From: an uncultured Lachnospiraceae bacterium
Lineage (GTDB): Bacteria; Bacillota; Clostridia; Lachnospirales; Lachnospiraceae
Length of the DNA: 64,000 nt
NCBI GenBank assembly: GCA_947174505.1
Contig: CAMWJF010000002.1
Coordinates: 1-64,000 of the forward strand
Reading direction: 5' to 3'
Below, in pieces: positions 13,268 to 48,944 of this stretch. A program made the position numbers and the translations under genes. The number at the start of each line of letters is the position of its first letter. Within the stretch, counting starts at the first letter, position 1. Below the pieces are notes generated by a model. That model saw only the letters and a list, made by a program, of their open reading frames with translations, was not told the DNA's origin and ran no database searches.

Positions 13268-13282
13268 AACGATGAATCTGGA
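13268..13282. repeat. Left junction: core AACGAT plus terminal inverted repeat
   Basis: The core AACGAT (13268..13273) also occurs at the right junction (48939..48944). Immediately inside, AATCTGGA (13275..13282) is the exact reverse complement of TCCAGATT (48930..48937) at the right end. The arrangement of a short shared core flanked by inverted recombinase arms is what tyrosine-recombinase elements leave behind. Confidence 0.85.
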
Positions 13283-13290
13283 GTTTTAAG

Positions 13291-13384
13291 GATGTGTTGC
13301 TGATGTTGCTCTAGTAAAAGGTAAACATGATATCTCGGTATATTGAACCGACATTGAGGTATGTTGCCGATGTGTTGCTGATGT
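13291..13384 (+). repeat. Two direct copies of GATGTGTTGCTGATGT near the left end
   Basis: The 16-bp sequence GATGTGTTGCTGATGT occurs at 13291..13306 and 13369..13384, with further partial copies of ATGTTGC in between (for example 13303..13309 and 13361..13367). They lie 18 to 111 bp from the core. At the opposite end, GGCAAC-t-GTTGCC (48875..48887) shares the GTTGC motif. These are plausible accessory binding sites for the recombinases. Confidence 0.7.
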
Positions 13385-13405
13385 AAGGTAGTAGCAAATA
13401 TCGGC

Positions 13406-13434
13406 TTTTCAAGGCATTATTTGAGGTATATAAT
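13406..13434 (+). promoter_or_regulatory. Putative sigma-A promoter of the left-end DUF6262 gene
   Basis: TATAAT at 13429..13434 is a perfect -10 box; TTTTCA at 13406..13411 is a weak -35 at 17-bp spacing. It sits 37 bp before the ATG of the 13471 gene, directly after the repeat cluster, so recombinase binding to the repeats could affect its expression. Confidence 0.5.
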
Positions 13435-13470
13435 GTTATTCATCAATTACATTCAAGGAGATAACCAGCC

Positions 13471-14022
13471 ATGTCAGAATTAACAGATAAAAGTACATCT
13501 AACTCCAAGAAAAAGGAAACAGAGTTGAAAGAAGTCGTTAGGAAGATGTTAGCCGCAGGTATTCCAATAACTTCCGCAGAGATTGAACGGCAATCAGGTC
13601 TTAGCCATTCATTTGTATATAAACCCGAAATGCAAAAGTTTATAAAGGAGCAGAAAGAAAAACAGAAAAAAGATGATTTAAGAGTAGATGTTGAATTGCA
13701 GAATTTCAATCTCCATACAAAACTTATGGCTTCTTATATATTTGCATACTCTCTTTTAGATGAGCAGGAAGAATTTTACAAAACTGCAATAGCAGAATTG
13801 AAGGACAGAGATAAACCTTTTGTAATCAATAATGGCTCTGATTCTGTCATAAAGTTTATCTGTCAAATATTATCCGAAGAAACTGACCCATCTAAAATAG
13901 ATAAACTACTCAATAAATTTAAAGTATGTTTTTCGGAAAGCATCCCTGATTGGAAAGAACAACTATTAGAAAAATTAGATAAATGTCTCGCTAAGGACAT
14001 ATTGGAAAAGAAATATAAATAG
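13471..14022 (+). CDS. DUF6262/TnpC-like protein at the left end
   Basis: A 183-aa protein. Residues 20-60 ('VRKMLAAGIPITSAEIERQSGLSHSFVYKPEMQKFIKEQ') follow the same pattern as the right-end small protein ('ARVCELADVHRSYFTKHPEMRRLL'), a helix-turn-helix typical of Tn554 TnpC/DUF6262 proteins. The rest is helical without recognised motifs. ATG preceded by AAGGAGA. It reads inward from the left end and ends at a bidirectional terminator. Likely a DNA-binding accessory factor for transposition; family assignment is by pattern only. Confidence 0.6.
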   Translation: MSELTDKSTSNSKKKETELKEVVRKMLAAGIPITSAEIERQSGLSHSFVYKPEMQKFIKEQKEKQKKDDLRVDVELQNFNLHTKLMASYIFAYSLLDEQEEFYKTAIAELKDRDKPFVINNGSDSVIKFICQILSEETDPSKIDKLLNKFKVCFSESIPDWKEQLLEKLDKCLAKDILEKKYK

Positions 14023-14038
14023 CACTGCATAATATAGT

Positions 14039-14072
14039 AAGAGGTATGGAATCAAAATTTTCCATACCTCTT
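14039..14072. terminator. Bidirectional intrinsic terminator
   Basis: A perfect 12-bp stem AAGAGGTATGGA / TCCATACCTCTT with a 10-nt loop lies between the convergent genes 13471 (+) and 14071 (-), touching the stop codon of the latter. Confidence 0.8.
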
Positions 14073-14766
14073 ATTTCACTGAACGGTGACATTCTGTTAA
14101 ATTATATCTTTTCAGGTCAGAAGCCAACACTATTATTTCTGCTTCATTTCTTGTATTGAAATAACAGAATGCATCTTCTTTATCAACTACACACTCATAT
14201 ACACAGGAATTATGGCTTTCGCATCTATCCGCATACCAAAAAGCCACCTTTTTGTTCAAAGTCCATGAAAACCCACATTTGTATGCTGGGCTACTTACTC
14301 CACGGTATACAACTACCTGGTCAGGTAGTTCGCTAAATATCTTTTGTTCTCTTTTATTCATTAGATAACTTTTATCTGCTTTATTGAACCACGCTTCAAG
14401 CTCTACTTCTGGTATCTCTTTCCCGCCATGCGCAAACCAAGAGAGTGCTAACATTTCTGCAAAGTCTTTGTCGGACAGATATTGATTAATGTCATTAAAG
14501 AACGCCATTCTGTACGATGGTCTTATTAATGAAAAAATAGAGTACACATTCTTACGATGTATAATATCTTCTTTACATTGTTCCTGCCACTGAAGGTATT
14601 TTTCTGTATCTTGAAATATATTAAACGGCTTATCTGTATCTATGCCATTAATTACAGGAGTGTCTATGTATGGATGCCGACACACGTTGAATCCTTCTAC
14701 TATTTTCGGCTCCGTATAAATAAGCTGTATTGCTTTATCTTTTACAATACTCAGATTTGTCTTCAT
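14071..14766 (-). CDS. Putative ADP-ribosyltransferase-fold protein
   Basis: A 231-aa protein whose C-terminal half shows the order of motifs of R-S-E class ADP-ribosyltransferases: 'QVVVYRGVSSP' (Arg), 'GFSWTLNKKVAFWYADR' (Ser-x-Thr followed by the ARTT-preceding helix) and 'TRNEAEIIV' (ExE). The N-terminal half is unrecognised. If active it would transfer ADP-ribose from NAD+ to a protein or nucleic acid. ATG at 14766 is favoured by GGGAGAGG 9 nt upstream. No signal peptide; no obvious antitoxin is adjacent. Fold assignment is motif-based and needs structure prediction. Confidence 0.5.
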   Translation of the reverse strand: MKTNLSIVKDKAIQLIYTEPKIVEGFNVCRHPYIDTPVINGIDTDKPFNIFQDTEKYLQWQEQCKEDIIHRKNVYSIFSLIRPSYRMAFFNDINQYLSDKDFAEMLALSWFAHGGKEIPEVELEAWFNKADKSYLMNKREQKIFSELPDQVVVYRGVSSPAYKCGFSWTLNKKVAFWYADRCESHNSCVYECVVDKEDAFCYFNTRNEAEIIVLASDLKRYNLTECHRSVK

Positions 14767-14838
14767 TTTCACTGCCTCTCCCATGCTTCTATTTTATATG
14801 CTACATTTGTCGATGGCAACATGTAATCTATCATCATG

Positions 14839-14849
14839 AAACCAAGTGA
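14839..14849 (+). promoter_or_regulatory. Box A: AAACCAAGTGA
   Basis: This 11-bp box recurs at 24620..24630 and, with one change, at 36180..36190, always on the plus strand inside the element. Here and at 24620 the similarity extends about 35 bp further (AAACAG, CTTT, TCAAT, AAAA in the same order). It precedes an AT-rich promoter-like stretch and a structured noncoding region. Likely a shared regulatory site or part of a repeated promoter module. Confidence 0.5.
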
Positions 14850-14899
14850 ACACCTAAACAGGCTTTCTATCAATAAAATGTTTTCGTAAAATAATAATA

Positions 14900-15160
14900 T
14901 AGAGTGAAAGTTAAAAATCCTTTGCTTTATTATCAACACTGATAATGTCGGAAGGAATCTGCCATTCAGATGGGCGGGAGTAATTAACTTACTAAGTGAA
15001 TTAAAAAGTGATTAGTTTATATTTTAATTGTGGCTACTTCTTTCCGACTAAGATGTTGATTCTAAGTAACTTATTATAGTCAATTTCTCAAAACCCTAAC
15101 AATTCTTTTTTTGCTATATCTTCCTTCTTAAGCTGTCTTTTTACAAGGCAGCTTTTTTAT
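14900..15160 (+). ncRNA. Candidate structured noncoding RNA A
   Basis: No plausible ORF. Two nested perfect 7-bp helices enclose about 88 nt: ATCAACA (14932..14938) with TGTTGAT (15054..15060), and GTCGGAA (14947..14953) with TTCCGAC (15042..15048). A plus-strand intrinsic terminator follows: AAGCTGTCTT / AAGGCAGCTT at 15130..15154 with a T-run. Together with box A upstream this looks like a transcript of 200-270 nt. The 5' end is a guess. Function unknown. Confidence 0.45.
15130..15160 (+). terminator. Intrinsic terminator overlapping the 3' end of the serine recombinase gene
   Basis: Stem AAGCTGTCTT / AAGGCAGCTT (one G-U pair), loop TTTAC, followed by TTTTT on the plus strand. It overlaps the last codons of the minus-strand gene 15141..15716, and terminates the plus-strand candidate RNA. 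Confidence 0.7.
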
Positions 15161-15716
15161 TTCTTTTAGCTCTTTGTAAGGTGCTCTTGCTGATTCCAGT
15201 CATGGATTCTACTTGCTTATAAGAGTGGCCTTCCAATAATTCTACGGCATGGGTTAGCTGCGCTTTAGAATATTTTTTTGGTCTTCCATCCCTAAAGCCT
15301 TCCCTGGTTTTTGCAATTTCCTTCCCTGCCTGACACCTTTCTATAATTTGGTTTTTTTCAAACTCCGCAAATGCAAGCAAAACAGTATATATAAGCCTTC
15401 CCATGCTGGTATCTTCTATCAATCCCATGTTCAGGATATGTATACTCACGCCTTTATCAAGAAGTTTATCTATGTACCCTAATCCTACTCTGACGCTCCT
15501 GCAAAATCTATCCAATTTTGCACAGACGATGATATCTCCTGCCTGTACCTTTTCTAATAGTTCTGAAAAAATTGGACGTTCTTCTCCGCCTGTATATGCT
15601 TCAACAATAATTTGGGCATCTGGATATCTCGCAAGAATTTGTGCTTGCTGGTCTTCAATAGAGTTCCCATCCGCATATTGCTTTTTCGTAGATACACGAC
15701 AACAACCATAAACCAT
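15141..15716 (-). CDS. Serine recombinase (resolvase/invertase family)
   Basis: A 191-aa small serine recombinase. The catalytic serine is in '[10 protein letters not shown]' (residue 8); further catalytic-domain landmarks are '[12 protein letters not shown]' and '[21 protein letters not shown]'. The C-terminus has a resolvase helix-turn-helix '[22 protein letters not shown]'. ATG 15716 is chosen because GGAGGTAAAGAT precedes it and it yields the canonical N-terminus. It could resolve cointegrates or invert DNA. It is distinct from the tyrosine recombinases at the right end. Confidence 0.9.
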
Positions 15717-16003
15717 ATCTTTACCTCCACAAATAATATAGGAGCAGGTTTCCACATATCCTGCTCCTTCGGTGCAATTATATCTAATTTGTTTCTGTAA
15801 ACGCAATATTACTATGGTTACTTTTGACCTGACTTTTGACTACCCTAAACCTCTTATATTTGCAGTACTCCATAACTGTATTCAAAAGGGTTAAGTTTTG
15901 AACAATATTTTTTTCAAAAATTTACTCATACGAAAATTTTTTCAACAATCTGTATTTATTGTTAAGCTTACCTTTCTTAATGAACGCCTAACTTATCAAA
16001 GAC
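15717..16003. other. Intergenic region upstream of the serine recombinase
   Basis: About 290 bp, AT-rich, no credible ORF. It contains a close repeat of ACTTTTGAC (15820s and 15832-15840), separated by a few bases, which could be part of a recombinase binding (res) site, but no clear inverted-repeat dimer sites were recognised. Confidence 0.3.
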
Positions 16004-17476
16004 TTATACATTATGCTGATGCAACGCTCTATCAATCAAAACTCCTGCGAGCTCATCATTTAAAATTTCAAACATTTTAATATCAGTGTTCTTATGAATA
16101 TATATTTCTATTCTATTTTGTTCATTGTCTATTTTTTCAATCAAAAAATGCCATATTTGTCGCGTAATTGGTAATGAAATTGTTACTTTTTCATTTAAGA
16201 TAATATTAAATTTGTCTTCTTCTTTTTGAACACTAACCCAAAGGCATCCACCCAAATCCTGTATATCATTTGTTTCATCTAAATGAATTTCTAATATTTG
16301 TAGTCCAATATCATATTTTTTAATAAATATTCCATCAGATATCTTAATCTCTTCATTAACTTCTTGTTCGTTTATCTCATAGGTTGCTTTAATAACCTTT
16401 TGATTTTGTATTTCTCTAATGACATCAAAAATCAACGAGAATTTATCACTTCTAATACTGTCAAATGGTTTCTTACTCTTTGAAATATTTTCTGCAAAAT
16501 TATTTTTTGATAATGCAATATTAGTACATTCTTTTTTTATTTTATATATATTTTCGTCGCAAATTTCTATATTTTCAGGTACTAGAAATACATTATCATC
16601 AATTATATGATTGGGGGGATTATTCTTTAATTTCTTGTATTGTGTATTAAATATTCTTGGCTTATTCTTCAATTTACCTGTTTCATCATTAAATTCATCG
16701 TTTATATATAATCTACGTTTATTCTCATCATATGTCTTAATTTCTTCATCTGTATAGTAATTTTCAATACTAATTAAAGGAGTTTTTTCCCTAAATTCAG
16801 GAACAGGTAAAATAAGAGAAAATACATTATTTCCCCAAGAAACAAAACTTTCCCCAGCATGTTTTTTATTAATTTCTTTATCATCTGAATCAAAGATAAA
16901 AACCTTGATTCCAGCACTGTAAAAAAGCTTAGTATAATTAAGAATATCCATTAATTTATTATTTCCCATTTGCAAATCATCTTCATACTCAAAAAAATCA
17001 AAATTAATATCATTATATAAATTTTGACTTTGAAAAACAGTTAAAGCATGTTTCAGATGTTTCCAATCAGTTTTTCCTTCTGTTATAATTAAATTTCGTT
17101 CTGATTCTAGAATTTCGTTCAAACGTCTCATTAATGTTGGCAAATACTTTTTTATATAGATTCGTGTAAAATTACCTCCTACTTTAATTTGAATATATAA
17201 TTCATCCTTTTTATATGTCATTTGATATGAAACAACATATTTTTTATCAAAAACCAATCTATCATTATCTTCTTCTCCGTATATTAATATAGTAGAAGAA
17301 TCTTCAGATATATTTTTTACTTTAAATTTTGTATAAATGGCTATCTGCTCCTCTATTCTCTCATTAGCAAAATTATCATTTATATTTTTTATATAAATCC
17401 ACATTCCATTTAATGATTTTAAATAATCTATAGCTGCTTTTTCATCAACAACCTCCATCCTGATATCTATCTCCAT
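16004..17476 (-). CDS. TOPRIM-domain protein, putative nuclease
   Basis: A 490-aa protein. The TOPRIM signature is visible: 'NLIITEGKTDWKHL' (catalytic Glu, about residue 132) and 'KVFIFDSDDKEI' (DxD, about residue 195), as in OLD-family and DUF4435-type proteins. Unlike OLD or GajA nucleases there is no ABC-type ATPase domain; the flanking regions are unrecognised. ATG 17476 has AAGGAG upstream. It is the last gene of a minus-strand group with a PD-(D/E)XK-like nuclease gene; a role in phage defence is inferred from context. Confidence 0.6.
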   Translation of the reverse strand: MEIDIRMEVVDEKAAIDYLKSLNGMWIYIKNINDNFANERIEEQIAIYTKFKVKNISEDSSTILIYGEEDNDRLVFDKKYVVSYQMTYKKDELYIQIKVGGNFTRIYIKKYLPTLMRRLNEILESERNLIITEGKTDWKHLKHALTVFQSQNLYNDINFDFFEYEDDLQMGNNKLMDILNYTKLFYSAGIKVFIFDSDDKEINKKHAGESFVSWGNNVFSLILPVPEFREKTPLISIENYYTDEEIKTYDENKRRLYINDEFNDETGKLKNKPRIFNTQYKKLKNNPPNHIIDDNVFLVPENIEICDENIYKIKKECTNIALSKNNFAENISKSKKPFDSIRSDKFSLIFDVIREIQNQKVIKATYEINEQEVNEEIKISDGIFIKKYDIGLQILEIHLDETNDIQDLGGCLWVSVQKEEDKFNIILNEKVTISLPITRQIWHFLIEKIDNEQNRIEIYIHKNTDIKMFEILNDELAGVLIDRALHQHNV

Positions 17477-17590
17477 TTTGTACACTCCTTACTATATTTT
17501 TATTATCTAATCTTTTAATCTGTATTTAGCTGCACACTTCACTAAACAAGACATATTTTTAATCTTTTCTTTCGCATAAGCACTCCTATA

Positions 17591-18556: not shown

Positions 18557-18616
18557 TGCTTCTCTCAACCTGTATATCAAAATTCTACATCTTACAAATA
18601 TATCATTGTTTATATT

Positions 18617-20785: not shown

Positions 20786-20792
20786 CAAGCAA

Positions 20793-22892
20793 TCATTCAT
20801 CTTCCAACAACATTTTCATTAATTCTTCTTTCGTTGATACCCCCATAATTTCCATCATTAGTTGTAGATTTTTCATCGGCTTGCCTGCTGCTTTTGCTTT
20901 TGCCACCTTGTTTCTAGCATCCTGGATTGACTTCAATGTCTGCTCATCCAAATCACTATTATTGAGAACCATCTGTTTGCGTTCTCCTTCTGTTGGGTAA
21001 TGGTCAAAATGCAGTTTAAATTCATTGTTTCTAATTTGCTCAAACTCTTTACAAAGACTTTTCATTTCTTCGCCATACCCCATTACTCTAACCCAACCTT
21101 TACTTCTGGTAATGGCTGTAAACAGCGCGTTTCTGTCACTTCTAGGCACTAATGAATTGATACATCTTTGTGCATTGAGAATATAGACCATGAAAGTTTC
21201 ATTGCCTTTAGCCCTGAAAACACTTGTGTAAACAATAGAATCATCTCTGAAAAAGTCTTCTGGATTTAATGAACCTGCCATGTGTATAGACAAATCCCCC
21301 TGATAGCCACTTTCCAAATTTATCATAGTCATTATGCTGGCTCTGTTTGTAAGACTACCAATAGCATCCATATCAATAATCATAATATCAGAAGGTAACA
21401 GTCTCTCCTTTTCAATATCATCTTTCAAAAACTGAATTAACGCTTTCTTTAAATCATCAAAACTTTCATATGATAAAAAGTCAATAATTTCATTTTTATC
21501 TACCTTCAACAGTTCAGGACTTGTTCTGGGTGTCCTATATAAAGTTACTTCTTCGTCATCTACTATCTTCTTGGAACTTTCATAACCTATTGCAGTCCAT
21601 ACATCAGGTGACCCAGGCATCTGCAATGGCAAATCATGCCCCTCTCGATACATACCCATGCCAATCGCATGAGCCGTCACGATTACAGGACTTTGGTTTC
21701 GATAGCAGACTGTAAGCGGCGTATCATTTTGAATTTCTTCACCAAATATCTTTTGTGGTGTCGGCATTGTTTCTTCATTAAGTTGCTGCAATTCATCATA
21801 AGCGTAAACCAATCGCTTATCACTGCCCAATACCTTCAGGCATAGGGATAGGAAGTTTTTGTCAAAATCCTGTGCTTCATCAATCAAGATGCAGTCATAC
21901 ATTTTCTCCATGTCAGGAACTTGCTTGATTACTTCTTCACACGCTTTTGAAAACGCCCTGTTCTTGCCATACTTAGTTTTGGCTTCCGTAAAATTAAGAG
22001 GTGTTATGCCATGATGTTTACAAACATTATAGTATACACCTGGAGCAGTAGCAGACCCCCATGAGTGCATTACTTTTATTTTTTCTTTGTCGTACTCTTC
22101 CCCATCATTCTTATCTGCATAAAATTTACCAATATACCTGACGAGCTGCTCTTTCAATGCCCTAGTTGAATAAGTTATTACTATCGTCCATTCCCTGTGT
22201 GCCATAAATGTTTCAACAGCTTTTCTTGCCAGTACAACAGTTTTTCCTGAACCTGCCATCCCTCTTATTCTTTGAATACCTGCCATATCCCCTAAAATTG
22301 CATCCATTTGAGCATGGTCATATTTTTCAATCAAAGCATTTGCCTCATTGATTTTATATGCCTTTGTTCCAGGCACAGCTCCTTTACGTTCTTTTCGTAC
22401 ATTCAGTCCATATGCTTCCTGAATGGCAGAAAGAATAGCATCATAATCAAAGTCTGAAAACTGCTCCTGTTCCTTATTTTCCTTTATAAAATTTTTGACA
22501 TCATCTACTGAAAACGCAATAGCGCAATCCTCTATAGGATTTATTTTTTCCGTTGAATAAGTAATGGAATGGAACTCAAATTTTAATTCCTTTTTTTCCC
22601 TTAAAGCTGGTACACGCATAAATTTTTCCTTTACGCGGCAATAAATGTCATATTGAACGTCATCATAGCTGGGGACAGGAATAGTCAATACATTAAAAAT
22701 GAACACACCTATCTTGGTTATTAAAGCCATATCTACAGATGTTTTTTCATTTGTCACTTTATTAAAATATATTGGATAGCCTAAATATGCCTCCCCCTGT
22801 ACACGTGGATATGCCGTATTAAAATCATGCACTATACCTTCTAAAATATCTTTGATATTTTCATCCAAATCCCTACAAGTCACATTTAACAT
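20793..22892 (-). CDS. Superfamily 1 (UvrD-like) helicase with N-terminal NERD nuclease-related domain
   Basis: A 699-aa protein. The first about 110 residues ('GEAYLGYPIYFNKVTNEKTSVDMALITKIGVFIFNV') fit a NERD-like domain. The helicase core has Walker A 'GMAGSGKT' (about residue 220), Walker B 'ILIDEAQDF' (about 340), motif III/IV-like 'LVYAYDELQQ' and a C-terminal 'VFRAKGNE' with 'FTAITRSKGWVRV' (motifs V-VI). It is 15 bp downstream of the PIN gene. NERD helicases act in DNA processing and several anti-phage systems; here the function is inferred from context. Confidence 0.85.
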   Translation of the reverse strand: MLNVTCRDLDENIKDILEGIVHDFNTAYPRVQGEAYLGYPIYFNKVTNEKTSVDMALITKIGVFIFNVLTIPVPSYDDVQYDIYCRVKEKFMRVPALREKKELKFEFHSITYSTEKINPIEDCAIAFSVDDVKNFIKENKEQEQFSDFDYDAILSAIQEAYGLNVRKERKGAVPGTKAYKINEANALIEKYDHAQMDAILGDMAGIQRIRGMAGSGKTVVLARKAVETFMAHREWTIVITYSTRALKEQLVRYIGKFYADKNDGEEYDKEKIKVMHSWGSATAPGVYYNVCKHHGITPLNFTEAKTKYGKNRAFSKACEEVIKQVPDMEKMYDCILIDEAQDFDKNFLSLCLKVLGSDKRLVYAYDELQQLNEETMPTPQKIFGEEIQNDTPLTVCYRNQSPVIVTAHAIGMGMYREGHDLPLQMPGSPDVWTAIGYESSKKIVDDEEVTLYRTPRTSPELLKVDKNEIIDFLSYESFDDLKKALIQFLKDDIEKERLLPSDIMIIDMDAIGSLTNRASIMTMINLESGYQGDLSIHMAGSLNPEDFFRDDSIVYTSVFRAKGNETFMVYILNAQRCINSLVPRSDRNALFTAITRSKGWVRVMGYGEEMKSLCKEFEQIRNNEFKLHFDHYPTEGERKQMVLNNSDLDEQTLKSIQDARNKVAKAKAAGKPMKNLQLMMEIMGVSTKEELMKMLLEDE

Positions 22893-24919: not shown

Positions 24920-24921
24920 CT

Positions 24922-26571: not shown

Positions 26572-29500
26572 ATGAAAAGAGTAAAGTATTTTTTAATGAC
26601 TGTGATTGTGTTTGCCCTTTTTACTATGACAGTAAATGCAGCAGATGTAATCACTATCAGCCAGACAAAAGCAACCGTCAATATTGGCGATACTGTAGAG
26701 CTGTCGGTTGAAGGAACTGACAGGATGCCGACATGGACATCCTACAATGCGAATATCGCAAAAGTAGATAAGTTTGGCAAGGTGACAGCGGTACGCAAAG
26801 GCAGTACCAAAGTCCGCGTGAGGGTTGGCTTATCCTCAAAACTATGTACCGTTACAGTCGTGGATTCGTCCATAAAGCTAAATAAGAAAGAAGCAACAAT
26901 CTACCACGGCGGCACATCGGTGAATACCATCCAGTTGAAAGCCACGGTAAAGGGTGCATCCAAGAATGCCACATGGGAAAGTTCTGACCCTGATGTAGCT
27001 ATTGTTGATGCAAACGGTAAAGTGACATCTGTTTCAGCAGGAACAACATTTATTACAGCTACGGCAAACGGCAAGAGCGCATCCTGCCCTGTAACAGTAA
27101 AGGAAAGCGGCATTTCTCTAAACATGGACAACCTGCACGTCAGCACAAAGGGAACTGGAAGTTCCATCAAAGTGACGCCAACCATTATTGGCTCCAAAAA
27201 GAATGTCAAGTGGGAAACTTCCGATAAGACTGTTGCTACTGTATCAGGCGGCAAAGTTACTGGAAAGAAAACAGGGACGGCTACCATTACTGCTACTGCA
27301 AATGGTGTTTCGGCATCCTGTAACGTTACCGTCACAGAGGGGCTTATATCCATCAATGAAGAAAAAATCCTGCTCTATGCAGGTGGCCTGAAGGCAGACA
27401 CAAAACAGTTAAAGACCAATGCGGCAAAGAAGGATGTCGTCACATGGAGTTCTTCAGATATGAATGTTGCAACGGTAAACGACAAAGGCCTGGTAACACC
27501 TGTGGCCGCAGGAACTGCTATTGTCAGTGTAGAATGTGGCGGCAAGACAGATACCTGTGTCGTAACCGTAAAACAGACAGCAACAAATATCCATGAGGAT
27601 TCCATACAGCTTAAGACCAAGGGGACAAATAAGACCTATGCTCTGAATAAGCAGATTGTCGGTAAGACAGCATCTGTAAAGTGGACAACTTCTGATAAGA
27701 ATATTGCTACTGTATCAGGCGGCAAGGTTACTGGAAAGAAGGCAGGAACAGCTACCATTACGGCTACAGCAAACGGTGTTTCTGATACAGTTACAGTAAA
27801 TGTAGCTGATTTTGACCCTACCATTAAGTTGAATCAACAGGAATATACGCTTTACACGATAAAAGGCAACTCGATTACTTTAAAAGCTACCGTTGATGGT
27901 TCTTCAAAAGCTGTCACTTGGGCAAGTTCAGATACTTCCGTTGCGACAGTAACGAATAAAGGCAAGGTTACTGCTATAGGTGCTGGAACGGCAACGATAT
28001 CAGCTTCAGCAAACGGCGTTACTGCTGAATGTATTGTTGATGTAACGGAAAGTTCAGTTGTTCTGGATAATTACTCTATTTCCCTTGATAAAGGCGAAAA
28101 GGCTACGATTGGATATGATGTAATAGGCACAAGCCAGACTGTAAAATGGGCAACTACCAACAGCAAGATTGCTTCAGTAAGCAAGGGCATTATTACAGCA
28201 AAAAATTACGGCGTAACAGATATAAAGGTAACAGCTAACGGCGTAACTTCAATCTGTCATGTGAATGTAACAAACTGTAAGCATCAGTATGATGATGGTG
28301 TTATAACAGCAGCTCCTACTTGCGGCACAGAGGGTTCTAAGACCTTTACCTGTATTTTGTGTGGAGATACTTATGTAGAGATAATCCCCACAACAGGAAA
28401 ACACAATTTTACATGGGTAGCCGTTAAGGACTCAGATTGTGTTATAAATGGAACTAAGGAGTACAAGTGCAGCGAATGTGAATATACAGAAAAGGAAGAT
28501 ATTATTCCTGCTCTTGGACACGATTGGTCTGATTGGGTTACGGTCGTTACCCCGACAGAAGAAGCTCCAGGTGTAAAGATAAGAGCCTGTAGTCGATGCA
28601 AACTTGAAGAAAAGGTAGAAATTCCTTGGTCTGACCATGTACATGATTACAGCTTTGATACCAAAGTAGTAGAGCCTGACTGTATAAATGATGGCGCAAC
28701 CATTCATTTCTGTATGTGCGGCGATTCCTATACAGAAAATGTTGTAAAGGCACTTGGACATGACTTTACAATATGGTCTGTAATAAAAGAAGCTACTTTT
28801 AACGAAAGTGGTTTGAAAATGAGAACCTGTACCAGATGTAAGTTTGAAGAAACAGAGATTATCCCTGTACTTACACATGAACATGATTTTGTTATGGCAG
28901 ATACAGTGGCTCCTACCTGCACAAAAGATGGCTACACTGAATACAAGTGTTCTGTATGCGGTGAGCTTCGACAGGATAATATCATTCCTGCAAAGGGACA
29001 TGATTATGTCGATACAGTTGTTGAGCCTACATGTGATGACAATGGATATACTGAACGCATCTGCTCTGCATGTGGTGACACCACCTACACTGACCAAAAG
29101 AACGCATTAGGACACGAAGCAAGTGATTGGATATTAATAAGTGAATCCTGTTATGGTTCAACGTATGAAAAACATTGCATCAGATGTGACAAATTTATGG
29201 AGCAGAAACGAATTGATGGGGCTGGTCATAATTATGAAACAGTAATCACTATCGAACCAAACTGCCAGCAGAAGGGCTTGAAACAGAAAAAATGTACTGT
29301 ATGCGGCGATGTCGCACAGGAATGGGAACTGGATGGAACCCACATTTATTCTGAATGGGAAACGACCAAGGACCCCGCTGAAGGCGTACACAAGACCAGA
29401 AATGATTTTGGAACAAGAGTATGTCATTGTACTGTATGCGGTAAGACTGTAGAAGAATCAATTGTAAGAATCGCAATTGCGGATGGACAGTCAAAAGAAG

Positions 29501-30414
29501 TATATGGTATCTTCCTTGACAATGAAACAAAAACTACCCTTGATATGGTCAATAACCTGCGCGCGACTGAGAAGAATCTCAAGGGCTACCAGTGGCAAGA
29601 AAAGTACGAGGATTTGTGTTACATCAGAGCCGCAGAACTTTCATACAGTTATAGCCATGACCGCCCAGGCGGAGGAGCCAGATGTGTAGAAATGCCTGAT
29701 GGTTCTGCTGAAATGCTTGGGGAAAATATCGCAAGAGGACAAGATTCTGCCGAAGAGGTATTCCATGACTGGGATTTGTCGCCTGGGCACCACGCAAATA
29801 TGGTTAATGAATGGTGTGAAAATTATTGCTGCAAAGGATTCATGGTGGATAATACAGATTTATTCCCATACCATTTATGGGTGCAGTTGTTCGGCGGATA
29901 TAGGGATGAAGACGACAGATATATCAAGACAGATGAAAACGGAGAAAATCCCGACAACACTGACAAAAAAGATGAAACAGGCAACAACAGCGGAACAGAG
30001 GACGATGGTGAAGATACAGGCAATGGCGAGGATAATGATGATGATGAAAAAGAAGCGATATTTACCATAAAATATGCCGTTGCAGGTATGGCAGATGCTA
30101 ACGAATACAAGCTGGGTGATATCGCAACAATCCTTGATTACACTGGAGGAGTTCCTGACACTATGGAATTTATCGGCTGGGGAACAGATTATACTGATAC
30201 GACTCCATCTTATCAGCCTGGTGAACAGATTGAAATGACAGCTTCCTTAAGACTTGTTCCTATCCTTGTAAATAAAGAAACAGGGGAAGGCGGAGACCAT
30301 GAAACCTCTGGCTCTACAGGAACCATTACACCTGAGTCTGACGGAAAAAACTCTAATACACAGAATGATAATGATTCAGTCGAAATTACTGAAACGCTTG
30401 AAAGCACAGAATAA
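26572..30414 (+). CDS. Giant secreted protein: seven BIG2-like repeats, cysteine-rich repeats, CAP domain
   Basis: A 1280-aa protein with signal peptide (residues 1-24). Residues 26-572 hold about seven Ig-like BIG2 repeats, each with a 'W.SSD...ATV...GKVT...AGTATITATANG' core. Residues 573-960 are repeats with paired cysteines (CSVCGE..., CSACGDT..., CTVCGD) separated by 'PALGHDWSDW'-like strands. A CAP domain lies at about 992-1111 ('SYSHDRPGGG', 'LGENIARG', 'SPGHHANMV'). Then an acidic linker and an InlB-B-like segment. No LPXTG motif or C-terminal anchor, so it is secreted or held non-covalently. Adhesion or wall remodelling is inferred. Confidence 0.88.
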   Translation: MKRVKYFLMTVIVFALFTMTVNAADVITISQTKATVNIGDTVELSVEGTDRMPTWTSYNANIAKVDKFGKVTAVRKGSTKVRVRVGLSSKLCTVTVVDSSIKLNKKEATIYHGGTSVNTIQLKATVKGASKNATWESSDPDVAIVDANGKVTSVSAGTTFITATANGKSASCPVTVKESGISLNMDNLHVSTKGTGSSIKVTPTIIGSKKNVKWETSDKTVATVSGGKVTGKKTGTATITATANGVSASCNVTVTEGLISINEEKILLYAGGLKADTKQLKTNAAKKDVVTWSSSDMNVATVNDKGLVTPVAAGTAIVSVECGGKTDTCVVTVKQTATNIHEDSIQLKTKGTNKTYALNKQIVGKTASVKWTTSDKNIATVSGGKVTGKKAGTATITATANGVSDTVTVNVADFDPTIKLNQQEYTLYTIKGNSITLKATVDGSSKAVTWASSDTSVATVTNKGKVTAIGAGTATISASANGVTAECIVDVTESSVVLDNYSISLDKGEKATIGYDVIGTSQTVKWATTNSKIASVSKGIITAKNYGVTDIKVTANGVTSICHVNVTNCKHQYDDGVITAAPTCGTEGSKTFTCILCGDTYVEIIPTTGKHNFTWVAVKDSDCVINGTKEYKCSECEYTEKEDIIPALGHDWSDWVTVVTPTEEAPGVKIRACSRCKLEEKVEIPWSDHVHDYSFDTKVVEPDCINDGATIHFCMCGDSYTENVVKALGHDFTIWSVIKEATFNESGLKMRTCTRCKFEETEIIPVLTHEHDFVMADTVAPTCTKDGYTEYKCSVCGELRQDNIIPAKGHDYVDTVVEPTCDDNGYTERICSACGDTTYTDQKNALGHEASDWILISESCYGSTYEKHCIRCDKFMEQKRIDGAGHNYETVITIEPNCQQKGLKQKKCTVCGDVAQEWELDGTHIYSEWETTKDPAEGVHKTRNDFGTRVCHCTVCGKTVEESIVRIAIADGQSKEVYGIFLDNETKTTLDMVNNLRATEKNLKGYQWQEKYEDLCYIRAAELSYSYSHDRPGGGARCVEMPDGSAEMLGENIARGQDSAEEVFHDWDLSPGHHANMVNEWCENYCCKGFMVDNTDLFPYHLWVQLFGGYRDEDDRYIKTDENGENPDNTDKKDETGNNSGTEDDGEDTGNGEDNDDDEKEAIFTIKYAVAGMADANEYKLGDIATILDYTGGVPDTMEFIGWGTDYTDTTPSYQPGEQIEMTASLRLVPILVNKETGEGGDHETSGSTGTITPESDGKNSNTQNDNDSVEITETLESTE

Positions 30415-40588: not shown

Positions 40589-40635
40589 AAACTGAATATG
40601 GAACTAATCTAAGCAAACGAAGGAGGAAAATGATT

Positions 40636-42180
40636 ATGATTAGAACGACCTTGAACTGGACAGTTAAGAACCTCAAAACAATGTATGATGAAAAAGATAC
40701 ATTATCTTTTGACCACCCCATCCAGAGGCAATCTTCGCAATGGGACAACGAACAGCAGAGCCTACTTATCCACAGTATGCTTGCAAATTTCCCTGTTCCC
40801 TCTGTGTATGTTCACAAAATGGAAAGCGTCGAATCTGACGGTAAAGGGAAACACACATACAGCTACTCTGTTTTGGACGGCAAACAGCGTATGACGACTG
40901 TTTTCAGTTTCATCAATGGAGAATTTTCTTTATCTGAAAATATCCCTGATGTGGAGATTGAAGGCGAAGTTTATGAAATCGCTGGGCGATACTTTGAAGA
41001 TTTGGATGAAGATGTACAGCAGGAAATCCTGCGATTCAAATTCAACATCCAGTCGTTTGAAGATGTAACAGACGAAGTAATTGAAGATATTTTCTTCAGG
41101 TTGAACAATTCCACTCCCTTGACGAAACCACAGAAATCGAGGCCCTTGATGGGTGTGGAAAACAGTATCTTCGTCAATGAAATTCTTGCAGGAAGATTTT
41201 TCAGGGAAAAATGCTGCTTTACACCAAAACAGCTCAAGAACTCAGACGATATGTGTACGCTGCTCCAGAGCATGATGTTGCTGGATAGCAAATATCGCGG
41301 TTATGAGTATACTACTATCGCAGCCGATGTCGTTTCCCTCCAGTACAGCAAGTACATCAATGGGAATTATCCTACTGAGTGCAAGGACAGGCTTAAAAAA
41401 ATCATCGGCTTCTTGGATAATGTTTTCTACATGAAGGACAAGAACCTGAAGAAAGTCAATATCCCCATCCTTTTCCTTATCGCGGACGAAGCACTGGAGC
41501 AGTCAGTTACAGGCATAAATTTCCGCAGGTGGTTCACGCATTTCTTTGAGAACTGCAAGGAAGAATATGGACAGTATTGCTCTAGTGGCTCTGTAAAGAA
41601 GGAAAAGACATTAGGCAGAATCAATGTCATGCAGGAAAGTTTTCGCAGCTACTTTAAGATACAGGAAACCAGCGAATCCTCTAAAGGAGAAGCTGATGAA
41701 TCCACAGGAAGTGTTACCGACACAACCTTTCCCGCAGAGATTGACACTGGAACAGACAACCTTTCCGAAGCAGAACCTACAGACGGCAGTACCGCCGAAC
41801 AGGAACCTGTTAAAGAATCTGATGTCGAATCACAGGAATCAGAAGCAGGCGTTGATACACAAGAGCTTGACAGCGAATCAGCGCAAAAATCTGATGAAGA
41901 ATCTTCAGAAGATATGGAAATCCCTGAAAAACATGAATTTACTGAAACTGCGGACAACTCCGCAGTACAGGAAACTGATGATGCAGAGGACACCACGGAG
42001 CAGGATTCGGAAGAATACGCTGAACAGGAAGGAGCTGACGGAAATGATGATTCAAATTTTGAAGATGCTCCTACTACAGAAGATGTTGACGGCGAAGTAT
42101 CAAGCGGGCGCGAAGGTTTTGCCGTAAACAACAGTTTTTTTGGCACAATGGCCGCTAAGTTCCACAGCTTAGTTGTGTAA
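40636..42180 (+). CDS. DUF262 (ParB/Srx-fold) protein with acidic tail
   Basis: A 514-aa protein. The N-terminal 120 residues have the DUF262 signature 'IQRQSSQWDNEQQSLLIHSMLANFPVPSVYV' and 'YSVLDGKQRMTTVFSFI', as in the GmrS part of GmrSD and in other NTPase/nuclease-like proteins; no HNH (DUF1524) half is present. About residues 345-500 are an acidic, Ser/Thr/Glu-rich disordered tail. ATG 40636 is chosen for spacing from AAGGAGG; 40630 is possible. Followed by an intrinsic terminator. Confidence 0.8.
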   Translation: MIRTTLNWTVKNLKTMYDEKDTLSFDHPIQRQSSQWDNEQQSLLIHSMLANFPVPSVYVHKMESVESDGKGKHTYSYSVLDGKQRMTTVFSFINGEFSLSENIPDVEIEGEVYEIAGRYFEDLDEDVQQEILRFKFNIQSFEDVTDEVIEDIFFRLNNSTPLTKPQKSRPLMGVENSIFVNEILAGRFFREKCCFTPKQLKNSDDMCTLLQSMMLLDSKYRGYEYTTIAADVVSLQYSKYINGNYPTECKDRLKKIIGFLDNVFYMKDKNLKKVNIPILFLIADEALEQSVTGINFRRWFTHFFENCKEEYGQYCSSGSVKKEKTLGRINVMQESFRSYFKIQETSESSKGEADESTGSVTDTTFPAEIDTGTDNLSEAEPTDGSTAEQEPVKESDVESQESEAGVDTQELDSESAQKSDEESSEDMEIPEKHEFTETADNSAVQETDDAEDTTEQDSEEYAEQEGADGNDDSNFEDAPTTEDVDGEVSSGREGFAVNNSFFGTMAAKFHSLVV

Positions 42181-42196
42181 TACCATAATTATATCT

Positions 42197-42226
42197 GAGG
42201 GCAGTTTTTTTATCTGCCCTCTTTTT
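42197..42226 (+). terminator. Intrinsic terminator after the DUF262 gene
   Basis: GAGGGCAG / CTGCCCTC stem with a T-rich 9-nt loop followed by TTTTT; lies between the DUF262 and RadC genes. Confidence 0.85.
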
Positions 42227-42242
42227 GAAAGGAGATTCCATA

Positions 42243-42710
42243 ATGAGGATAAATACATATTCGACACATATTAATCAGGATGGGCAAAATATCTTGGTAA
42301 AAGAAAGCACTGTAAATTATACAAGTGTCAAGATGCTTTCTTCGCCAGAGAAAATTGTTGAAATTATGCAAGAAGTCTTTAACCTCAACAAATTCAGTGA
42401 GGAATATGTCTACATGATAGCCCTGAACAGTAAATGTTCACCCATAGGATTTTTCCAAGTGAGCCACGGGACTGTATATACAAGTCTATTGCAACCACGG
42501 GAAGTTCTCATAAGGGCCTTGCTTGTAGGAGCAACAGGAATCATCATCTGTCATAACCACCCAAGCGGATATCCAATTCCAAGTGAAATGGATATAAAAG
42601 TAACAGCCAAGCTAAAGGAAGCGTGTGAACTAATTGGCGTTATCTTATACGACCATATAATTATTGGTAACGATTCCTATCTGAGCTTTCAAGAAGCAAA
42701 GTTATTATAA
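42243..42710 (+). CDS. RadC-like JAB-domain protein
   Basis: A 155-aa protein equal to the JAB/MPN core of RadC: 'EEYVYMIALNSKCSPIGFFQVSHGT', 'REVLIRALLVGATGIIICHNHPSGYPIPSEMDIKVTAKL' with the HxH-x7-S-x2-D metal-binding motif (HNHPSG...EMD). The N-terminal HhH part of chromosomal RadC is absent, as usual for element-borne copies. ATG 42243 follows AAAGGAG. Of interest because classical Tn554 targets the chromosomal radC gene; this element instead carries a radC-like gene. Confidence 0.9.
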   Translation: MRINTYSTHINQDGQNILVKESTVNYTSVKMLSSPEKIVEIMQEVFNLNKFSEEYVYMIALNSKCSPIGFFQVSHGTVYTSLLQPREVLIRALLVGATGIIICHNHPSGYPIPSEMDIKVTAKLKEACELIGVILYDHIIIGNDSYLSFQEAKLL

Positions 42711-42720
42711 GTCATTACGC

Positions 42721-44817: not shown

Positions 44818-46555
44818 AGCACAGATTACTGATTTTAACATTAAAAGTTTCTTTAGGGGATGTGTCTGGAATTTCAGGGAATATCCTGACAAAGAGATTG
44901 CGGAGCATTTTTCCCACAAAAAAAATTACATCCTTGACCTGTCAGGGATTGTCGGGACAACGCTTTTTAGTGACATAAAAGACATATTTATCTGTATGTT
45001 TGCAAACGGTGAACCTTATACATATAAGTCAAAGGCGTTTCCCCAGACATTATTTATTCATGAATTTATGCTCCAATATGGATATAAGGATTTCTCCCAT
45101 ATAGACGATGCAGACAGGGCTGATAGTGAATGGCAAAATTTTTGGCAGGACAAAGCGAAAGTAAATCTTCATGACCTGCAATATGTTATCTCCAACTGTA
45201 AATTTATTCTGAAAGAGTTTAGGGATACAAGGACAGGACTTAACAGGAATTTTTGGCGTTTATCTGATATGAATATAAATGATGAACGCCTGAATAAATC
45301 TAAAGACCGTGTTGTTATCAACTTTTGGAACATAGAAAATGCAGAAAATAGGGAACTTTTGAAATTATGGATTCAACATTTAATCGGCGGAACTGAATTA
45401 GCATACTCAACTATTTATAATCGTTTTTCCCTGATGGCTATGTTTATATCCTTTTTGGGTAATAAATCCCTATTGGATGTAAACCACACGGATATAGAAA
45501 ACTACCGCAGTCAGGCAAAGATAAGCACTGGCAAGAACAATCATTTAATAGGTAATCTGAATGAGTTTTACAAATATCTTCAGGTAAAAGGCAGATATAG
45601 TGGGAAAATCCCCGTAAGTAAACAGGATATGATGGCAGATGCCCCTAAGTATATCAAAACCAGTGTATCAGATTACACAATAGTGGAAATCTTTAAACAC
45701 CTACATCTGCTATCTGAAACTTATATGCTTATGTACCTTATCAATCTGTTTACAGGCATTAGGACAAGCGATATCTGCCAGTTGAGGACAGACTGCTTAT
45801 TTGAAAATGAGCATGGATATTTCCTTGCCCATGACTGCCAAAAGATGCAAGACGTTGGGGCAATTCCTATCTGCAAAGAATTGTATGACATGATTAGGGA
45901 AAGAATAACCTGGGCTAATGACAATGAGTATGAATATCTGTTTCCCTCCGAAAAAGATAGAAAATTGCCATACAATTCGCAAACCTACAGAAATAAAATG
46001 CAGAGAATTATGAAGGAATGGGGTATCAAAAATCCTGATGGCACACCTTACCATTTTACTACGCATTCCTATCGACATACGATAGCGACTACGCTGGCAA
46101 AAATGGGAATGCCTTCGGCACTTATACAAATTGGTGTATTACACCACACAGAGATTAATATGTCGAGACATTACATAGAAGATGACGCCGACAGCCAGCT
46201 ACAAACTATAAACGAAACAGGGCTGAATATCTCAGGAAATACAGAAATTATAATTGCTTCTGATGATACAGTCCTATCTAACGGCTTCTGTGGTATGCCT
46301 GCAAAGATTCATTGTAACAAACTTGGTGCCTGTCTAAACTGCGAATATTTCAGGACAAGTCTAAAATTCCTTGAAGTACATGAACAGCACCTTGAAAATC
46401 TGAACAAACAGATAACATATTTTAAGGCAAACGGCTATACACAGAACTTGGCTTTTGCAGAAAAAGAGAAAGCCAAATTAGAACTGATAATCAAAAAGCT
46501 GCATGAATTGAAAGGAGAATGTGAAAATGAAAACAGCTTTATTACAACAGAATAA
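44798..46555 (+). CDS. tnpB: Tyrosine recombinase TnpB-like (first)
   Basis: A 585-aa tyrosine recombinase: 'NLFTGIRTSDICQLRTD' (Arg), 'TTHSYRHTIATTLAKMG' (HxxR), 'VLHHTEINMSRHYIED' (His, Tyr). A C-terminal cysteine cluster 'GFCGMPAKIHCNKLGACLNC' resembles the zinc-binding region of TnpB. Overlaps tnpA by 20 bp and the next gene by about 30 bp. Several ATG codons are clustered at 44798..44812; 44804 or 44810 are possible starts downstream of AGAGAGG. Confidence 0.9.
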   Translation: MMMIMNKAQITDFNIKSFFRGCVWNFREYPDKEIAEHFSHKKNYILDLSGIVGTTLFSDIKDIFICMFANGEPYTYKSKAFPQTLFIHEFMLQYGYKDFSHIDDADRADSEWQNFWQDKAKVNLHDLQYVISNCKFILKEFRDTRTGLNRNFWRLSDMNINDERLNKSKDRVVINFWNIENAENRELLKLWIQHLIGGTELAYSTIYNRFSLMAMFISFLGNKSLLDVNHTDIENYRSQAKISTGKNNHLIGNLNEFYKYLQVKGRYSGKIPVSKQDMMADAPKYIKTSVSDYTIVEIFKHLHLLSETYMLMYLINLFTGIRTSDICQLRTDCLFENEHGYFLAHDCQKMQDVGAIPICKELYDMIRERITWANDNEYEYLFPSEKDRKLPYNSQTYRNKMQRIMKEWGIKNPDGTPYHFTTHSYRHTIATTLAKMGMPSALIQIGVLHHTEINMSRHYIEDDADSQLQTINETGLNISGNTEIIIASDDTVLSNGFCGMPAKIHCNKLGACLNCEYFRTSLKFLEVHEQHLENLNKQITYFKANGYTQNLAFAEKEKAKLELIIKKLHELKGECENENSFITTE

Positions 46556-48350
46556 TCTTATTGATTTTGGCTTAGTTTCCCCTTATAACAACGATATTTG
46601 GAATATATGTGAGTGGGATATCTACAAAAATGCCACCGAAAACTATAAGGCAAACTGGAAAGCTCGCTCAAACATCATGAATAATAATATGGATTTTTCA
46701 CTTTGTAAAAATGAAACTATCAGGGAAGAATTAAAATATTTTGCTTTTTATCTCCTGAACATAAAGAAAATATCCATCTCTACCTTTGCAGAATACGTTG
46801 ACAGATTTAAACTGCTCTTCGCTTTCGTAAATGACAGGCAGTACCAATCAATATTGGACATTGATACAGTTGACTATGAGCGATATATAGCTATTAACCA
46901 TAAGGCTGTGATAGATGACGGCACTGTACTGAATGGGCAGGAATTAGTTCCATCAAAAAGGCGTAACCGACTAATTGCTTTCCTAGATTATTTCAAAAAG
47001 ATAATCTATCAATACATAGAGTCTGCCAAACCTGTTTATGAGAGAGAGGTTTGGAACTGGAAAGATATTGCACCTGATGAGCCAGGCACTTCTAATTTGA
47101 TATTTTTCGACATAGAACAGCCCATTATGAAGCAGTCGATAAAAGATTTTCTAAAAGACAAGCTATCCAACTGCGCTATGAAAACTGCCCACAGATATTT
47201 AGATGACATTAAGATTTTTTGCAGTTGGCTGTATGTATATGATAGTAGCATTACTTCATTCAAGGATGTGACAAGAGATATCTTAGAAGACTATTTCCTG
47301 TTTCTCAGGGTTGAGTCAAGATTTTCACAGAATAAGGTTAATTTGAATATCCTCAATCTGTCAGTGCTATTTGAATATGGGATTGTTACATGTGATAACA
47401 GGTTTCCTGATGATATCCTTTTTCTGACAGATGATTATTGCTTTAAAACTGTACATAGAGCTGATTTTTACACGAATGAGGAAGTGGCTGCTATCTTTTC
47501 AATGGTTGAATATCTTCCAAAAATATATGGAAGGATTTTATTAGTGCTGCATCACACAGGAATGAGGATAGGTGAAGTTTTACGACTGCCGATTGACTGC
47601 CTGAAATATAAGGATGGGACACCATATCTAGCAGTATATATGTATAAGACAAAAAGATATAATAGTATCGCTATAGACGATTATGTACATCAGATAATCA
47701 GTAGGGAAATTAGCAGGACACAAAAGCACTTCTCTAATGCAAAATATGTGTTTGTAAACAGTAGTGGCAATGCTTTTACTCACAGCACTTTTACTAAGAC
47801 AATAAAAAAGTGTGTCGCAGAACACAATATTTTAGGAAGAGATGGTAAACTGCTTGATTTTAGAACTCACAGATTCAGGGCGACAAAGGCAACATATTTA
47901 ATTAACGCTGGTCATGACCCCAGGAGTGCTGCCGATATGTTGGGGCAAAGCTGCTTGTCTTCTCTTTCCTACTACGCTGTTGCAACGAATCAAAGTTTAC
48001 AGAAACATATGCAGGAATACTTGAAGAAGGAATCCATCTTAATCAATTCTATTGGTCAGGTGGATGAAAACGTCATTGAAGATTACGAAAATGCCCATCC
48101 TTTGTGCAATGGATGGTGTTGCAAGCCTATTGAATTAGGCGTATGCGATAAGATTAATGCTTGCCTGACCTGCTCACTGTTCAAACCTTCTATGGAGCAT
48201 CTTACTACATACAGGTTACAGCTTTCAGAGATTGAATCTTCTCTTTCTGTAGCCAATGAAAATGGATTCACACGAATGGCTGAACAATGCGAAAAGGAAA
48301 AGGCCGCGTTGGAAAATATTATTAAAGGATTGGAGGAAAGACTACTATGA
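46527..48350 (+). CDS. Tyrosine recombinase TnpB-like (second)
   Basis: A 607-aa tyrosine recombinase: 'LHHTGMRIGEVLRLPID' (Arg), 'RTHRFRATKATYLINAG' (HxxR), and 'MLGQSCLSSLSYYAVA' where the usual third histidine is Gln and the nucleophile Tyr is retained. A cysteine cluster 'GWCCKPIELGVCDKINACLTC' follows. ATG 46527 has AAAGGAG. Classical Tn554 has only one TnpB, so this is an extra family member; the trio recalls RIT-type recombinase triplets. Confidence 0.88.
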   Translation: MKTALLQQNNLIDFGLVSPYNNDIWNICEWDIYKNATENYKANWKARSNIMNNNMDFSLCKNETIREELKYFAFYLLNIKKISISTFAEYVDRFKLLFAFVNDRQYQSILDIDTVDYERYIAINHKAVIDDGTVLNGQELVPSKRRNRLIAFLDYFKKIIYQYIESAKPVYEREVWNWKDIAPDEPGTSNLIFFDIEQPIMKQSIKDFLKDKLSNCAMKTAHRYLDDIKIFCSWLYVYDSSITSFKDVTRDILEDYFLFLRVESRFSQNKVNLNILNLSVLFEYGIVTCDNRFPDDILFLTDDYCFKTVHRADFYTNEEVAAIFSMVEYLPKIYGRILLVLHHTGMRIGEVLRLPIDCLKYKDGTPYLAVYMYKTKRYNSIAIDDYVHQIISREISRTQKHFSNAKYVFVNSSGNAFTHSTFTKTIKKCVAEHNILGRDGKLLDFRTHRFRATKATYLINAGHDPRSAADMLGQSCLSSLSYYAVATNQSLQKHMQEYLKKESILINSIGQVDENVIEDYENAHPLCNGWCCKPIELGVCDKINACLTCSLFKPSMEHLTTYRLQLSEIESSLSVANENGFTRMAEQCEKEKAALENIIKGLEERLL

Positions 48351-48769
48351 ACAGAAATACTAAACCTATGAACGAATATAATGTCAACAGAGGCAAGACT
48401 ACAAGAGAAAGAGTTATCGCAGCTATTGAACAATGTAAAGCGGAGAAAGACATATCTACCGCCAGAGTTTGTGAACTGGCAGACGTACATAGGTCTTACT
48501 TCACAAAACACCCAGAAATGCGTAGGTTATTAGATACTGCTAAAGGTATTGTAAACAGAACGATTAAAAAGAGACAGCAGAATGAAAATAGCAAAGATGT
48601 TATTATAAAGTCATTGCAGATTAAAAATGCTGCCTTAGAAAAAGAAAATCATACATTAAGTGACTATACAAAATATAAAACTATGTATGAGTCTAAATGT
48701 GAAGAAGTGGAAAAATTAAAAAATCAGCTCAATCAGAAATATATTGAGTCTGGTATTTTGAACTTCTGA
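48347..48769 (+). CDS. tnpC: TnpC/DUF6262-like protein
   Basis: A 140-aa protein. HTH-like N-terminal region 'RVIAAIEQCKAEKDISTARVCELADVHRSYFTKHPEMRRLL', C-terminal coiled coil ('IKSLQIKNAALEKENHTLSDY'). Its ATG overlaps the stop of the second tnpB (ATGA), with GGAGG upstream. In Tn554, TnpC modulates orientation and efficiency of transposition; here it occupies the same position. Only about 170 bp from the right end. Confidence 0.8.
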   Translation: MNRNTKPMNEYNVNRGKTTRERVIAAIEQCKAEKDISTARVCELADVHRSYFTKHPEMRRLLDTAKGIVNRTIKKRQQNENSKDVIIKSLQIKNAALEKENHTLSDYTKYKTMYESKCEEVEKLKNQLNQKYIESGILNF

Positions 48770-48775
48770 CTTATG

Positions 48776-48810
48776 AAGGTGGAGTGTAAAAACTCTGCCT
48801 TTTTCTTTTT
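48776..48810 (+). terminator. Terminator after the transposase module
   Basis: Imperfect stem AAGGTGGAGT / ACTCTGCCTT with 6-nt loop, followed by TTTTCTTTTT. Confidence 0.65.
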
Positions 48811-48874
48811 CATGAAGTTGTGTAGAAAATGATTATTTTGTAAAAAATCCAGTAAAATCAATGGATTACACTAT

Positions 48875-48944
48875 GGCAACTGTTGCCCATGTAAAACCCT
48901 TGTAAATACTGGGGCACTGGGTTCGGTAGTCCAGATTTAACGAT
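48875..48944. repeat. Right end: GGCAAC-GTTGCC palindrome, terminal inverted repeat and core
   Basis: GGCAAC-t-GTTGCC (48875..48887) is a perfect palindrome sharing GTTGCC/GTTGC with the left-end repeats. TCCAGATT (48930..48937) is the reverse complement of the left-end AATCTGGA, and AACGAT (48939..48944) is the core that is also at the left junction. Right of 48944 the cpaF 5' reading frame continues. Confidence 0.85.

Follow-up and report, generated by a model that had tools for sequence, protein, structure and literature searches.

The 64,000-nucleotide stretch of DNA analysed here, hereafter called the window (C2:1-64000), comes from the 4.26-Mb genome of an uncultured Lachnospiraceae bacterium, assembled in 151 contigs. 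Its cpaF gene, encoding the ATPase of the Tad pilus, is interrupted by an island which carries an operon of three tyrosine recombinase genes and a gene for a TnpC-like protein, and which is bounded on both sides by the same 6-bp core. The island is very probably a site-specific integrative element of the broad GInt/Tn554 kind, moved by the recombinase trio with the TnpC-like protein as a helper, in a group whose recombinase clades read different codons of the Tad genes. Tad pili are widespread adhesion machines.

The cpaF gene is encoded on the minus strand and was found in two parts, with further tad genes downstream of the break:

48939..49760, minus strand, cpaF 5' part, residues 1 to about 274, containing the Walker A stretch and stopping at the 6-bp core
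48939..48944, minus strand, right 6-bp core, ATCGTT in cpaF sense
13274..48938, island between the cores, 35.7 kb
13268..13273, minus strand, left 6-bp core, ATCGTT in cpaF sense
12869..13273, minus strand, cpaF 3' part, about residue 273 to 406
12145..12909, minus strand, TadB-like T2SSF gene, downstream of the break, open
10632..12107, minus strand, TadC-like T2SSF gene, downstream of the break, open
10335..10535, minus strand, intact Flp pilin gene with the stretch GMGTVEIILIIVVLIGLV, the site used by related islands

Rejoined at AACGAT (ATCGTT in cpaF sense), the two parts form a single open frame of 406 amino acids, as proposed in the initial annotation of the window, which had also placed the insertion correctly to within the 6-bp core. 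Each half on its own matched the T2SSE/TadA-type ATPase families. The break lies within RMRPDRI-IV/GEVRGGEA (slash at the break), a stretch which we take to be the Walker B region. Uninterrupted cpaF genes, reading RIIVGEVRG across the site, are present in two congeners (G060, 85 % identity; G370, 84 %), and the two halves are therefore one gene. No second intact cpaF was found in the window's own genome, in which the only relative is a PilB-like paralogue with 31 % identity.

Among public genomes, cpaF was found to be cut at the identical codon, within the identical 6 bp, in three others (G057, G397 and G195), as expected from the initial annotation; because of this recurrence chance is excluded as the cause of the break, and the proposal that an element carrying tyrosine recombinases had inserted precisely and site-specifically in a conserved motif of cpaF was borne out. 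These islands and that of the window are hereafter called type 1. G057 and G195 belong to the family of the window but to genera other than its own. The right ends of the three islands are alike (ATATATGGAGCAACC...) and unlike the right end in the window. The islands of G057 and G397 have 92.9 % DNA identity over 6588 bp and 98 % identity in TnpA, compared with 62 % in the cpaF 5' parts, a difference which indicates that the island moved horizontally between distant hosts into the same codon. For G195 both ends and the left-end gene were read and the recombinases were not, and for G057 one end was read. The left and right cores are identical in the window but not in G397 or G195, so that they differ in two of the three fully read type-1 islands. 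No further type-1 relatives were found in IMG/VR, and none besides the window among 392 genomes sampled across the order; one scan of a genome collection returned three loci, two of them already met. From plasmid and phage collections only distant Tn554-type TnpB proteins were obtained, with about 24 % identity among the best 20 of the 228 records from plasmids and all 4 from phages.

The ends of the window island and the genes next to them are as follows:

13274..13284, plus strand, left end arm GAATCTGGAGT
13291..13384, plus strand, three 16-nt direct repeats near the left end (13291, 13358 at 81 %, 13369)
13471..14022, plus strand, left-end DUF6262 gene, 183 amino acids
43621..44817, plus strand, TnpA-like tyrosine recombinase, 398 amino acids
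44798..46555, plus strand, TnpB1-like tyrosine recombinase, 585 amino acids
46521..48350, plus strand, TnpB2-like tyrosine recombinase, 609 amino acids, 95 % of its length aligning with Tn554-type TnpB at 24 % identity
48347..48769, plus strand, TnpC-like DUF6262 protein, 140 amino acids, 28 % identity to Tn554 TnpC
48928..48938, minus strand, right end arm AAATCTGGACT in inward reading, with AATCTGGA common to the left arm

The 8-bp arm AATCTGGA adjoins the core at both ends of the island. A long terminal inverted repeat was not found, nor was any inverted 9-mer at the termini of the window island. The 16-nt direct repeats near the left end are possible accessory binding sites for the recombinases. 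The island of G397 too has a DUF6262 gene at its left end, and that of G195 has a very similar frame there. The operon of the three recombinases and the TnpC-like gene occupies the right end. All three recombinases retain the R, H-x-x-R and Y residues (R-H-R-Y), and in TnpB2 the second H is replaced by Q.

Islands of a second type break cpaF just before NTGHDGS. They were identified in seven genomes, with the recombinases read in four (G232, G155, G138 and G239) and the ends only in three (G275, G284 and G183). The type-2 islands have common arms, TTATATGKAC, and 6-bp cores, and in G232 (a genome of one contig), G138 (seven contigs) and G239 both junctions lie on a single contig. Among the four islands with recombinases read, TnpA identity was 93-97 % and that of the host cpaF genes 51-70 %. 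The left and right cores are the same in three of the seven (G138, G275, G284) and different in four. In G239 the left core, AGGCAT, is unlike the right core and identical to the core at both ends in G275, which suggests a footprint retained from previous residence in a different cpaF.

A third site is in the Flp pilin gene, located between tadC and a DUF5702 gene; its interruption falls at the same codons in all 11 genomes concerned (G197, G203, G292, G690, G699, G061, G544, G152, G706, G004 and G374). The break, GxxE[IV][IV]LI/VVLIGLV, falls in the hydrophobic stretch, in the Flp helix. Its two sides are on one contig in six of the 11 (G152, G690, G699, G292, G197, G004); in the others one side was read, the 5' side in G203, G061 and G544 and the 3' side in G706 and G374. 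TnpA identity among four of the genomes was 98-99 %, with cpaF identity of 45-58 %. Where both ends were read and the end was clear, the cores were equal in G690 and G699 and different in G292 and G197. In G183 (G183:C33, L079) the 5' half of a Flp pilin gene is also cut at the usual codon, in the same genome as its type-2 island in cpaF.

To place these islands within the family, TnpB2 was searched against 397 family genomes (E 1e-20 or better), of which 21 matched, and a three-row profile was searched against the order sample of 392 (1e-30), of which 19 matched; eight genomes were common to both sets, giving 32 in total. In 17 of the 32 the island is in Tad genes, in cpaF in six (G000, G057, G155, G138, G239, G232) and in the Flp pilin gene in 11. 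Two genomes, G183 and G251, were left out of the target assignment, the recombinases of the latter having 35-36 % identity and its contig stopping before any target is visible, and the surroundings in G704, G497 and G585 were unread. In G302, TnpB2 was the only member of the trio found. Second TnpB2 matches, two in G138 and one in G118, had no cpaF within 1.5 kb, the range checked.

A TnpA tree of 28 rows with Tn554 as outgroup was made by a quick method and contains flagged long branches. In this tree the cpaF-A, cpaF-B and 'other' targets each formed one group, and flp needed two changes. Five target labels required four changes, the least possible, compared with a mean of 14.6 after shuffling, a clustering to which near-copies in the tree contribute. 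Between hosts, TnpA identities of 93-99 % go with cpaF identities of 45-70 % (in the G057/G397, type-2 and main flp groups); the TnpA of G061 (57-58 %) and that of the window (39 %) are more distant. As judged from the TnpA tree, the target follows the recombinase clade. In a separate trio clade (L120, L124, L126-L128, L131-L134), neither cpaF nor flp was seen to be broken in the stretches read.

The trio, together with the TnpC-like protein, most likely pairs the island ends with cpaF codons over the 6-bp core. The exchanged core would cover two codons of the cpaF motif RI[IV]GEVRG, with the AATCTGGA arms joined to it. Separate clades would read separate Tad codons, namely the cpaF Walker B region, cpaF before NTGHDGS and the Flp pilin helix, and another clade may have a target other than these three. 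In the window, insertion leaves Walker A on one side of the island and the GEVRG and HDGS stretches on the other, with tadB and tadC displaced by 35.7 kb from the 5' part of cpaF. A scan of 13240-13500 for promoters gave a single match, on the plus strand and at the shuffled mean, and nothing directed into the 3' part of cpaF. Because cpaF is split, tadB and tadC are displaced and no promoter-like sequence directed into them was found near the left end, Tad pili should not form, and their loss in the window strain is strongly suggested. Nearly all of these bacteria have Tad genes, and since the genes are also conserved and presumably dispensable, they could serve as a portable landing site. 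One mobile family thus exploits several genes of a single nanomachine; the interrupted cpaF and Flp pilin genes would provide natural pilus knock-outs for asking what role the Tad pilus has in the gut, and the 6-bp cores, matched to codons, offer new integration sites to be studied.

Several observations weigh against such an island moved by its own trio into Tad genes. Mobility is deduced from comparison of sequences, and no movement was observed. Both junctions are on one contig in only one of the four type-1 islands, that of the window, and in the G195 island the recombinases were unread. The foreign-looking core is at the right end in G397 and at the left end in G195, so that the end concerned is not constant. 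The window island carries a small serine resolvase, and large serine recombinases are present inside the type-2 islands of G232 (L067 6089-7954) and G239 (L080 4533-6395). Of the 32 genomes matched by TnpB2, ten (G027, G102, G118, G148, G214, G289, G302, G597, G645, G691) showed neither a cpaF nor an flp break in the stretches read, and Tad genes are therefore not the only target of the family. The large serine recombinases in G232 and G239 may belong to nested elements. The G138 island, which was read whole, contains the trio, has no match to a large serine recombinase and has the same ends as the other type-2 islands, and type-2 insertion is for this reason credited to the trio.

The initial annotation described the element as Tn554-like. 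Compared with the Tn554 proteins of OL539428.1, identities were 27 % for TnpA, 24.7 % for TnpB1, 24.2 % for TnpB2 and 28 % for TnpC, and the gene order was the same. The description holds for the TnpA, TnpB and TnpC homologues and the 6-bp cores. It does not hold for the number of recombinases, three in the window island with two TnpB-like proteins whereas Tn554 (OL539428.1) has one TnpB, nor for the target, cpaF instead of radC; the window island also differs in its size of 35.7 kb and in having a DUF6262 gene at each end. In gene set the island is closest to the GInts, as judged from descriptions of GInts. According to the part of the GInt report available (PMC5385486), GInts have three integrases and a GinD/TnpC-like gene per operon, large cargo and strong site specificity, and include Firmicutes examples. 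The window island likewise has three genes of the tyrosine recombinase type and a TnpC-like fourth gene in one operon. In the same part of that report GinC lacks some catalytic residues, whereas R-H-R-Y is retained in all three window recombinases. The targets given there are the 5' end of an ABC transporter gene and ssb, and target genes are expected not to be wholly inactivated; the window island, in contrast, cuts its target gene in the core.

The elements called SEs, as far as described in the available part of PMC10214605, resemble the window island in the 6-bp spacer, in the tyrosine recombinases with a TnpC-like protein and in the imperfect inverted ends, and perhaps in the footprint, although the cores are equal in the window and the end with the foreign-looking core varies among its relatives. 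They differ in having two catalytic recombinases and a Tfp without R-H-R-Y, and are described mainly from Gammaproteobacteria. RIT elements also have three tyrosine recombinases in a row, but in the same part of that source the archetype has recombinases of 315-410 amino acids and 34-bp terminal inverted repeats, compared with 398, 585 and 609 amino acids, short 8-bp shared arms and a TnpC-like protein in the window island. Elements with large serine recombinases in relatives of the window strain interrupt cpaF at neighbouring codons but use an unrelated class of recombinase. The islands thus combine known chemistry and a known gene set with a new target system, several clades being directed at one machine. 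Judged by title and the opening of the abstract, no mobile islands in cpaF or flp were found among the literature matches listed, in agreement with the suggestion that the target was undescribed for this family. Two of the papers listed contain cpaF, one of them in a table of genes, the other being PMC10300472.

The pattern of targets could also have arisen by selection for pilus loss. Tad pili of other bacteria are known as phage receptors, and if the pili are costly, islands that destroy them would be favoured and unrelated recombinases would converge on the same genes. The trio islands account for three sites in two Tad genes, and further cpaF codons are hit by elements that have large serine recombinases or similar ends. 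At 1e-30, cpaF matches were obtained in 387 of the 397 family genomes, and cpaF was recovered in two pieces in at least 16 of the 397, the window included (G000, G057, G195, G232, G155, G138, G275, G284, G183, G239, G161, G313, G157, G264, G300, G005). This count is a lower bound, the re-search having covered 34 of the 397, mainly those with weak or missing matches, and G397, with stronger-scoring genomes unopened. Large serine recombinases are next to cpaF breaks in G057, G173, G285 and G300, and a partial one in G157. In G057 (G057:C3, L049 8083-9819) a large serine recombinase of 578 amino acids lies directly beside the 3' piece of cpaF, at the TGHDGS codons, and this cpaF appears to have been struck by two unrelated elements. 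In G157 (L082, L083, L084) two cpaF 5' pieces both stop at the TGH codons, where the element ends resemble each other, and one 3' piece adjoins the C-terminal part of a serine recombinase. At RMRP-D, with GA at the crossover, cpaF is broken in G161, G313, G264 and G173 (L057-L063); the 3' pieces begin alike in the first three, and a large serine recombinase adjoins the break in G173.

The PilB-like paralogue was used as a control for such convergence and matched in 165 of the 397 genomes at 1e-90. None of the matches listed ended at its GEIR motif, residue 407. Among them, contig edges cut the gene in G066, G147 and G372, and five stop at 488-505, four with frames continuing beyond, which is read as C-terminal divergence. 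This favours selection against the Tad pilus, but the limit used brought in only those 165 genomes, weak halves may lie beyond the matches listed, and universality together with dispensability would yield the same pattern without selection. Selected loss is therefore a doubtful explanation. Equally tentative is a proposal that a three-recombinase lineage of Lachnospiraceae reads the three Tad codon stretches and depends for its spread on switching Tad pili off, reversibly or to protect against agents that exploit the pilus; if true, pilus loss would be part of the strategy of the island and not a side effect.

The initial annotation further suggested a reversible switch, in which precise excision in some cells restores cpaF and the pili, giving phase variation. 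Both halves of cpaF and the tad genes downstream of them have open frames, the halves show no decay, and the ratio of nonsynonymous to synonymous substitution (dN/dS, NG86) of the halves against the congeners was 0.03-0.12, similar to the 0.07 between the two intact genes. Low dN/dS fits a recent insertion equally well, however, dS was saturated, and a second method failed in two of the five comparisons. The identical cores of the window mean that precise excision there would restore the same letters, whereas the unequal cores in 4/7 type-2, 2/3 fully read type-1 and 2/4 read flp islands mean that excision could leave altered codons. In the closest studied elements, as described in the parts of the sources available, end recombination yields no empty site (SEs, PMC10214605) or an empty site is seen in only some strains (GInts, PMC5385486). 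The switch is thus unsupported, and we regard it as improbable. An assembly artefact or decayed remnant is hardly credible: although the genome is in 151 contigs and the cpaF halves are on separate contigs in several relatives, both window junctions lie within one 182-kb contig, analogous insertions have both ends on one contig in other genomes, one of them of a single contig, and the recombinase frames are open with near-identical copies in other genera. An integrative island of the GInt/Tn554 kind, directed at Tad codons by its recombinase clade, is thus the preferred explanation.

Some apparent splits of cpaF were left out of the count given above, namely G192 (frameshift-like), G205 and G266, together with G134, G260, G377, G197 and G279, where the match ends at a contig edge, and G042, G173, G200 and G285, where a single piece was found. 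More cpaF breaks were seen near residues 301, 246, 226 and 271 (L090 in G285, L091 in G200, L092 in G005 and L064 in G042).

The remainder of the window island contains the following cargo genes:

15141..15806, minus strand, small serine resolvase, 221 amino acids
22908..24320, minus strand, PIN_8-domain protein, adjoining a helicase-like gene at 20793-22892
26572..30414, plus strand, Big_2/CAP protein, 1280 amino acids
30496..35322, minus strand, LRR/VWA/Cna_B protein, 1608 amino acids
39431..39811, plus strand, single-strand binding protein (SSB)
40630..42180, plus strand, GmrSD_N-domain protein
42225..42710, plus strand, RadC-domain protein

Two of these, the Big_2/CAP and LRR/VWA/Cna_B proteins, are very large and have surface-type domains, and they are carried on an island that disrupts an adhesion pilus, so that one adhesin has possibly been swapped for another through the cargo of the island.

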